Shown here in pieces: positions 44,171-45,666 of a DNA stretch of 52,847 nt; the first letter of the stretch is position 1; each line of letters begins with the position of its first letter. The notes below the pieces were generated by a model. That model was given only the letters and a program-made list of their open reading frames with translations, was not told the origin of the DNA and did no database searches. The position numbers were made by a program, and so were the translations under genes. Source of the stretch: Marinobacterium profundum (lineage in GTDB: Bacteria > Pseudomonadota > Gammaproteobacteria > Pseudomonadales > Balneatricaceae); the NCBI RefSeq assembly GCF_001528745.1, contig NZ_BCNS01000208.1, forward strand, positions 1 through 52,847, given 5' to 3'.

Positions 44171-44469
44171 AAAAAAACCTGAAGTGTTTCGACTTCAGGC
44201 CTTTTTCGCCAGACCGATAACCCATAATTATCGATCTCTAAATACGGCCGTGGGGACAGGATTTGCACCTGTGACCTTCGCCCGGGGTCATAAAGAGCGA
44301 GCCCGACCAATTCTCCCAAAAAGCTGTGCCGGCAAACTAACCCAAACGTCGATTTGAACGAAAAAAGGCTGGAATCTTTCGACTCCAGCCTTCTCTCTAA
44401 ATATGGTAGCGGGGACAGGATTTGAACCTGTGACCTTCGCTGCAGTTATGAAGAGCGAGCCCGACGCTT

Positions 44470-44497
44470 GGCTTTTGGCTTTTGGCTTTTGGCTTTT
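44470..44497. repeat. Heptamer repeat, GGCTTTT x4
   Basis: Four exact head-to-tail copies of a 7-bp unit stand directly beside the truncated copy at 44404-44467 and before its hairpin at 44508, at the same relative place as the CTTACGG array in cluster 1. Confidence 0.9.
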
Positions 44498-44670
44498 TCT
44501 GGAAAACAAAAAAGGCCTGAATCCTCTCGAATTCAGGCCTTTCTCAAGACAAATAACGATTTGCTATCTGACTTTTAAATATGGTAGCGGGGACAGGATT
44601 TGAACCTATGACCTTCGCTGCAGTTATGAAGAGCGAGACCGACGCTTTATGCCCTCACTGCTCAAAAACG

Positions 44671-44702
44671 AAAAAAGGCTGGAATCTTTCGACTCCAGCC
44701 TT
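44671..44702 (-). terminator. Terminator after tRNA-fMet copy 2
   Basis: GGCTGGA/TCCAGCC stem with a T-run on the minus-strand side (AAAAAA at 44671-44676), 12 bp downstream of the tRNA 3' end. Confidence 0.82.
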
Positions 44703-44713
44703 CTCTCTAAATA

Positions 44714-44790
44714 TGGTAGCGGGGACAGGATTTGAACCTATGACCTTCGGGTTATGAGCCCGACGAGCTACCAGACTGCTCCACCCCGCA
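44714..44790 (-). tRNA. Initiator tRNA-fMet(CAU)
   Basis: A 77-nt initiator tRNA identical to those at 16603 and 45590, with CAU anticodon, three G:C pairs beside the anticodon loop, an unpaired U1/U72 and encoded CCA. Its promoter and terminator are listed separately. A truncated copy (44582-44645) begins 68 bp downstream. Confidence 0.95.
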
Positions 44791-44803
44791 TCAACGTGGG
44801 CGT

Positions 44804-44832
44804 ATAGTATAGAGGCCCAACCGCAAGCGCAA
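44804..44832 (-). promoter_or_regulatory. Promoter of tRNA-fMet copy 2
   Basis: On the minus strand TTGCGC and TACTAT are spaced 17 bp apart, ending 13 bp before the tRNA. Confidence 0.75.
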
Positions 44833-45514
44833 CCCCTTATCCAACCGTAGCCCTCTTTAATTCGAAGGAATCCCTCAAAACCAACAATTTCATGATTTTA
44901 AACGAAAAACGGTCGCGACCTGCCCCGACGAGATTCTCCCCTAAACCAAGGCAGCAGAACCAGTCTTCAACCTGCGACCTTCGCTGCAGCGGTGAAGGGC
45001 GAGCCCGACGCTTTATGCCCTCACTGCTCAAAAGCAAAAAAAGGCTGCAATCTTTCGACTCCAGCCTTCTCTCTAAATAGGGTAGCGCGGACAGGCTTTG
45101 AACCTGTGACCTTCGCTGCAGTTATAAAGAGCGAGCCCGGCGTCTTCTTTGCTCCTCTACTAACGACAAATAACAAAAAAGGCCTGAAGCTTTTCAACTT
45201 CAGGCCTTTTTTGCAGAACTGATAACTTTCGATTACCAACTCTTGAATGTGGTAGCGGGGACAGGATTTGAACCTGTGACCTTCGCTGCAGTTATAAAGA
45301 GCGAGCCCGACGTCTTCTTTGCTCCTCTACTAACGACAAATAACAAAAAAGGCCTGAAGCTTTTCAACTTCAGGCCTTTTTTGCAGAACCGATAACTTTC
45401 GATTACCAACTCTTGAATGTGGTAGCGGGGACAGGCTTTGAACCTAAGACCTTCGCTGCAGTTATAAAGAGCGAGCCCGACGCGTTACGCTCTTGCTGCT
45501 CACCGCTCTGAAAC

Positions 45515-45551
45515 GAAAAAGGCCCGAAATCTTTCGACTCCAGGCCTTTTT
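45515..45551 (-). terminator. Terminator after tRNA-fMet copy 3
   Basis: An imperfect stem closed by GGCC/GGCC with A and T runs on both sides, 38 bp downstream of the tRNA 3' end. Confidence 0.75.
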
Positions 45552-45589
45552 CGCAAGATTGATAACCGATGATTATCGATCTCTAAATA

Positions 45590-45666
45590 TGGTAGCGGGG
45601 ACAGGATTTGAACCTATGACCTTCGGGTTATGAGCCCGACGAGCTACCAGACTGCTCCACCCCGCA
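45590..45666 (-). tRNA. Initiator tRNA-fMet(CAU)
   Basis: The third identical 77-nt initiator tRNA gene, with the same anticodon stem, U1/U72 mismatch and encoded CCA. It is the first gene of cluster 2 in the direction of transcription; truncated copies follow at 170-bp steps. Confidence 0.95.

Follow-up and report, generated by a model that had tools for sequence, protein, structure and literature searches.

Tandem arrays of pseudo-tRNA units behind the initiator tRNA genes of Marinobacterium profundum and its relatives

Why should initiator tRNA genes be trailed by strings of their own altered copies, and could such copies have any use? The question is raised by a stretch of 52,847 nucleotides from Marinobacterium profundum (the whole of the DNA analysed, hereafter the window), in which the original prediction had placed two intact initiator tRNA genes amid seven truncated copies, with starts at 45080, 45250, 45420 and 45590 exactly 170 bp apart. 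ARAGORN and Rfam, together with a comparison of the repeats, confirmed both the genes (tRNA-Met(CAT), 44714–44790 and 45590–45666, minus strand) and the seven altered copies that accompany them, the T-arm-to-end parts of which start at 45420, 45250, 45080, 44949, 44582, 44404 and 44245; the 170-bp spacing is likewise exact, and is the repeat period of array 1. A third array, absent from that prediction, lies at 16126–16679 and consists of a tRNA-fMet gene and three copies, with a period of 162 bp (at 99%). Read along the minus strand, the gene at 45590–45666 is followed by four copies, and those at 44714–44790 and 16603–16679 by three each. The elements of the three arrays are as follows.

45590–45666, minus strand: intact tRNA-fMet (CAT), head of array 1 (ARAGORN, Rfam)
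45420–45484, minus strand: pseudo-tRNA unit 1 of array 1
45250–45314, minus strand: pseudo-tRNA unit 2 of array 1
45278–45312, minus strand: conserved 5' block through GAAGGTC, exemplified by unit 2 of array 1
45080–45144, minus strand: pseudo-tRNA unit 3 of array 1
44949–45012, minus strand: unit 4 of array 1, badly decayed
44714–44790, minus strand: intact tRNA-fMet (CAT), head of array 2 (ARAGORN, Rfam)
44582–44646, minus strand: pseudo-tRNA unit 1 of array 2
44404–44468, minus strand: pseudo-tRNA unit 2 of array 2
44245–44310, minus strand: unit 3 of array 2, decaying
16603–16679, minus strand: intact tRNA-fMet (CAT), head of array 3 (ARAGORN, Rfam)
16441–16505, minus strand: pseudo-tRNA unit 1 of array 3 (162-bp repeat)
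16279–16343, minus strand: pseudo-tRNA unit 2 of array 3
16126–16190, minus strand: pseudo-tRNA unit 3 of array 3

Downstream of arrays 1 and 2 lie purU and folD, and upstream of them a gene with a Tim44 domain; array 3 is next to a DUF72 gene. The fourth tRNA-fMet gene of the same genome (contig C88), beside a tRNA-Leu gene and rimP, has no copies. Seven-base microsatellites (TTGGCTT, CTTACGG; about four copies each) adjoin the block of two units, at 44468–44497 and 16198–16225. Elsewhere in the window, a 128-bp tandem repeat (3.5 copies, 98%) at 3276–3728 overlaps the start of the ORF at 3658–4734. The genome is a draft of 226 contigs, which would suit the idea, named in the original prediction as one that would undo it, that the arrays are an assembly artefact; we give this almost no weight, as G028 and G031, each assembled as one contig, have arrays too, and so do unrelated families.

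What, then, is a unit? The copies had been described as truncated, with the tRNA 3' part kept through CCA. The tRNA 3' end is indeed retained, but CCA ends only four of the seven copies in arrays 1 and 2 (45420, 45250, 44582 and 44404), two others ending in CCC or CCG and a decayed copy having lost it; and plain truncation does not describe them, since the anticodon arm has been replaced. Alignment of the units gives a constant order of parts: TCGGGCTC, which corresponds to tRNA positions on the 5' side of the anticodon loop and after which the anticodon arm is replaced; [A/G]GCTCTTYATAA; a variable stretch; GAAGGTC; the T-arm; the acceptor 3' strand, usually with CCA; and the tRNA's own trailer. 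The spacing from the block to the T-arm varies in length among units. When tRNA models were run on the copies, a check that had been proposed with the prediction, they failed as tRNA genes: three units scored 17.7–17.9 bits with the covariance model, under the cut-off of 29, and ARAGORN called none. An antisense reading frame through the units (GTGFEPVTF...) was considered and dropped, being the antisense of the tRNA and crossing a block-to-T-arm interval of varying length; a text search of the literature gave no trace of it.

How such units arose is suggested by other genera, in which their tRNA-like part extends further in the 5' direction: at loci L077 and L075 it includes D-arm sequence, and at L085, where the units are near full-length pseudo-tRNAs with the same insertion, it stops just short of the 5' end. 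From these 5' parts, the unit would be descended from a complete tRNA gene whose anticodon arm had been altered, the ancestral tRNA-fMet gene having gained an insertion in that arm and lost its 5' end. Outside family f1 (in f4, f25, f42 and f47) the anticodon arm is also replaced, with a different middle (GGCGCAGCCGCT) and with the block shared only in part.

The original prediction had offered a different origin, in which the copies are scars left by successive integrations at the 3' end of the tRNA, comparable to attR remnants. tRNA genes are common attachment sites, and integration would account for the match of the 3' half and trailer of each unit to the local tRNA. An attR remnant should, however, carry sequence of the integrated element 5' of the crossover, just where the units of L085 (nearly full length), L077 and L075 are tRNA-like. 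Around the arrays that were located in 10 genomes, no PF00589 integrase gene was found out to 10 kb (the nearest being about 17 kb away, in G026), and a Pfam search of 20 of 61 window ORFs (≥170 aa) revealed no integrase. Two exact block patterns gave zero and one match in viral contigs, the latter a chance match in a virion gene, and phage and plasmid matches, among the matches listed, are to intact tRNAs or short halves. Integration scars are thus very improbable.

The arrays are not peculiar to M. profundum. Searching relatives for the unit, as had been advised, was done with a model built from the units, in which a match of 64–81 nt denotes a unit and one of 54 nt an intact tRNA. It found units in all seven genomes of the genus and in at least 34 of 116 genomes of the family, belonging to at least 10 of 16 genera, and it detected units in G029, G032 and G033 that an exact pattern had missed. 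A block-only model gave matches in 11 of 390 genomes of the order, seven of them outside the family (f2, f6, f31, f37 and f44), and all seven were read by eye; among 369 genomes of the class, its single match besides the window's own genome was a chance one inside a coding sequence. Other matches outside the order, and those in viral contigs, were likewise judged by eye to be chance matches inside coding sequence, with no tRNA. A scan with the tRNA 3' end only, from which genes with known arrays in G000, G018 and G116 were left out, found partial copies within 900 nt of 14 of 106 tRNA-fMet genes, in eight of 80 sampled genomes of the order (from f2, f4, f16, f25, f42 and f47; reversed queries gave none). 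Seven of these eight genomes show a replaced anticodon arm before a GAAGGT-type sequence, and L228 resembles a unit split in the T-arm. With all searches combined, units are present in 11 families of the order, and the occurrence of similar arrays in related families hints at some job.

Initiator tRNA genes are not alone in this habit. Among the 77 tRNAs of the M. profundum genome, extra 3' ends occur within 900 bp at three tRNA-fMet, three tRNA-Arg(ACG) and five tRNA-Asp genes; reversed queries gave 0 matches, so the extra ends are not due to chance. The Arg(ACG) and Asp genes concerned sit in clusters, and in their pseudo-tRNA units the anticodon loop is enlarged and the 5' part has diverged. 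The pattern of the Asp unit was found in four of 99 family genomes, all four in the genus. At L150 and L133 (contigs C85 and C156 of G000), such units lie behind tRNA-Arg(ACG) and also among tRNA-Asp and tRNA-Val genes.

How might the arrays have been maintained? The T-arm and acceptor (28 nt) of 121 units, chosen by their block, from 35 loci were compared with tRNAs: 99 units are nearer to the local tRNA, seven tie, and 15 are nearer to another, these last being mostly badly decayed or frameshifted. Quirks of the local tRNA recur in the units, for example an unusual acceptor reading TCCCGC at L104 and an end reading CAACCA at L099. These comparisons give good support to the idea that the 3' half of the unit is renewed from the intact local gene, the means being presumably gene conversion or fresh duplication. 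The picture of a satellite-like array amplified over a long period, which was part of the original prediction, has held up well: 170-bp or 162-bp units that are 96–99% identical adjoin decayed ones; units ranked further from the local tRNA tend to mismatch it more (Spearman 0.33, p 2e-4; 120 ranked units, not mutually independent); and DUF72 recurs as the array's neighbour in several genera (g1, g5, g7 and g14), as does the next gene in g2, which implies that at least one array locus is old. Mobile genes sometimes lie between units: at L030 of G028 (4319–8269), genes for a group II intron reverse transcriptase/maturase and a serine recombinase, and at L035 of G031 (3977–5230), a gene for a Mutator-family transposase.

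It can therefore be envisaged from the tRNA-like 5' parts and the local likeness of the 3' halves that new units would arise by tandem duplication or unequal exchange beside the intact gene, that gene conversion or fresh copying would hold the 3' half of many of them close to the local tRNA, and that the more distant ones would tend to decay. Each unit would then run from the conserved block through the T-arm and the CCA-bearing acceptor 3' strand to the tRNA's own trailer, plus the terminator if the tRNA possesses one. Our preferred reading, to which we give a probability of about 60%, is of a long-standing family of pseudo-tRNA units that is renewed locally and has a block that probably works inside the tRNA transcription unit; the origin and upkeep of the array are well supported by comparison among loci, and a role is what we infer from the considerations that follow.

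The block was in place in 96 of 97 units found by their T-arm alone (up to six mismatches), compared with 7–14 for shuffled upstream sequence. Within genomes (165 pairs), the distance between units is 0.068 for the block, 0.115 for the T-arm and acceptor and 0.261 for a 30-nt spacer, the units having been picked by a T-arm with at most six mismatches, which caps the T-arm distance, and one unit with no recognisable block having been omitted. Between 17 lineages the identity of the block is 0.89 and the flanks are near the shuffled level, in units chosen by their block. That the block is the least variable part points to constraint, and, as the intact tRNA lacks it, its conservation cannot be put down to renewal from the gene. 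Since it is not in the tRNA, is least variable and can be recognised across families, the block probably has a use.

Might the arrays nevertheless be a neutral by-product, in which tandem duplication of a tRNA gene leaves harmless broken copies that are kept young by recombination, the block being conserved through copying from unit to unit? The decay of copies with rank, the neutrality of T-stem substitutions (below), the same habit in tRNA-Arg and tRNA-Asp, and the presence between units of an intron with a recombinase gene (G028) and of a transposase gene (G031) would all be in keeping with this. Gene conversion from the intact tRNA could not, however, renew a block that the tRNA lacks, and yet the block is the least variable part within genomes; moreover, it was recognisable across families in a scan that made no use of it. 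We consider neutrality unlikely, though quite conceivable.

Another possible use would be termination. Every copy in arrays 1 and 2 had been credited with its own terminator: hairpins of one family (D5, eight copies) do stand behind eight of the nine elements, but a stricter terminator scan made only three calls on the minus strand (45341, 45171 and 44666). The hairpins are listed below.

45511–45552, minus strand: terminator-like hairpin behind the tRNA at 45590 (D5)
45341–45382, minus strand: terminator-like hairpin behind the unit at 45420 (D5 and terminator scan)
45171–45212, minus strand: terminator-like hairpin behind the unit at 45250 (D5 and terminator scan)
45032–45073, minus strand: terminator-like hairpin behind the unit at 45080 (D5)
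44666–44707, minus strand: terminator-like hairpin behind the tRNA at 44714 (D5 and terminator scan)
44504–44545, minus strand: terminator-like hairpin behind the unit at 44582 (D5)
44356–44397, minus strand: terminator-like hairpin behind the unit at 44404 (D5)
44166–44207, minus strand: terminator-like hairpin behind the unit at 44245 (D5)

Taking loci together, a terminator-like site follows 38 of 54 tRNAs (three when shuffled) and 86 of 114 units (11 when shuffled), as might be expected if each unit were an extra fail-safe terminator behind a strongly expressed tRNA. Two lineages, however, have terminators behind neither: g16 (0/5 tRNAs, 0/6 units) and f42 (0/7 tRNAs, 0/6 units). The terminator would thus be copied along with the tRNA trailer and is not the common denominator of the units, the best-conserved part of which is the block, not the terminator. 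A cascade of terminators is an improbable explanation.

A conserved fold of the units is not supported either. T-stems pooled over lineages are 97.4% paired, with 10 double-changed cells compared with 1.5 in shuffles (and 0/60 for T-arm chimeras), but this apparent covariation is what the copying of different local tRNAs would produce. Measured against the local tRNA, 36 of 73 one-sided T-stem changes keep the pair (34.3 expected), and two-sided changes leave five pairs intact and three broken, in a test from which units identical to the tRNA, with more than nine mismatches or lacking a GGCTC-like block were left out. The new anticodon-like arm does not exceed shuffled sequence in stability (mean z +0.42 over 30 lineages, eight of 30 negative), and anticodon-arm chimeras folded equally well in 19 of 100 shuffles (an earlier, narrower set gave 4 of 60). 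Compensatory changes other than those carried over from the tRNA showed up neither in the T-stem test nor in that of the new arm. A mini-tRNA fold lacking the D-arm was tried and rejected: one of five sequences had a z of -3.65, the others ranging from -1.39 to +0.20, and the arm and T-stem controls went against it. The units may be a family of tRNA-derived small RNAs, as had been suggested; the structure tests are neutral on this.

If the block does act within the tRNA transcription unit, as we prefer to think, how would it come to be transcribed? In f42, rimP is preceded by alternating units and tRNA-fMet genes, an arrangement in which co-transcription is likely. Unit, tRNA-fMet and rimP occur together in f4, f16, f42 and f44 (61 of 129 tested loci have rimP). 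At L191, L194, L251 and L098, in four families, units lie between tRNA-fMet and rimP, which is where the nusA-infB operon has its leader. A scan of 44100–45760 in the window gave no sigma-70-like promoter, and the terminator ahead of each unit there should keep read-through low, which counts against a role dependent on it. The unit may be appended to the transcription unit of initiator tRNA, where it would be transcribed through read-through or as part of a multi-tRNA operon and then cut out, with the block as the active part of what is excised; we put this forward tentatively, by analogy with the RtT RNA of E. coli. More specifically, and more doubtfully, the units might be undescribed regulatory elements derived from initiator tRNA, in which a non-tRNA block is joined to a refreshed T-arm and CCA end, and which might sense or titrate a factor that handles initiator tRNA, for example in the metY-rimP-infB leader, adjusting translation initiation. 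A search of the open-access literature, with subscription journals mostly outside its scope, found no description of these arrays.

How do the arrays compare with known systems? Like the arrays, attR remnants in tRNA genes leave the gene followed by a displaced 3' half of the tRNA; the arrays differ in having no integrase gene within 10 kb (in the 10 genomes covered), in the tRNA-derived 5' part of their units, and in consisting of many near-identical units of about 130–170 bp without cargo. The metY-rimP-nusA-infB leader offers another parallel, in that a short locus of f4, f16, f42 and f44 holds units together with tRNA-fMet and rimP; according to passages of one paper, RNase III sites and two terminators, t1 and t2, lie in this interval in E. 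coli (PMC6511841). The metY-type locus of Marinobacterium (L037) differs in having no unit, the arrays being at other tRNA-fMet copies.

To our knowledge, tRNA-derived repeat units have been known mainly from one E. coli locus, and their role there was never settled. At the tyrV/tyrT locus of E. coli K-12 there are three units of 178 bp that close with the 3' end and trailer of tRNA-Tyr, carry the annotation rttR and match Rfam family RF00391 (RtT), and the likeness is close: in both systems tandem units stand behind a tRNA gene, each ending in the tRNA 3' end, CCA and trailer. The E. coli repeats differ in deriving from tRNA-Tyr rather than initiator tRNA, and in being split in the T-arm, whereas the array units are split in the anticodon arm. 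A T-arm insertion is also found in units of related loci (L102 from 1504, L096 at 1303–1431, and L228), where the T-loop is split by a palindrome-rich insert at the same site as in the tyrT repeats. The original prediction had allowed that the array might prove to belong to a described repeat family; RtT is the nearest one known, and RF00391, which does find the E. coli tyrV repeats, does not match the array, being neither among the gathering matches in the window nor among the 39 matches with E up to 10 in 44160–45720, all of which are to terminator-like leader families, at the level of tRNA, or stray. According to passages of two papers, RtT RNA is released from the tyrT transcript and is linked to the stringent response (PMC4986893; PMC2965389). 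The array described here is an initiator-tRNA counterpart, spread across 11 families of one order and made up of a conserved non-tRNA part and a part that tracks the local tRNA, and it provides many natural replicates, including operons without terminators, in which to test what RtT-like repeats do.
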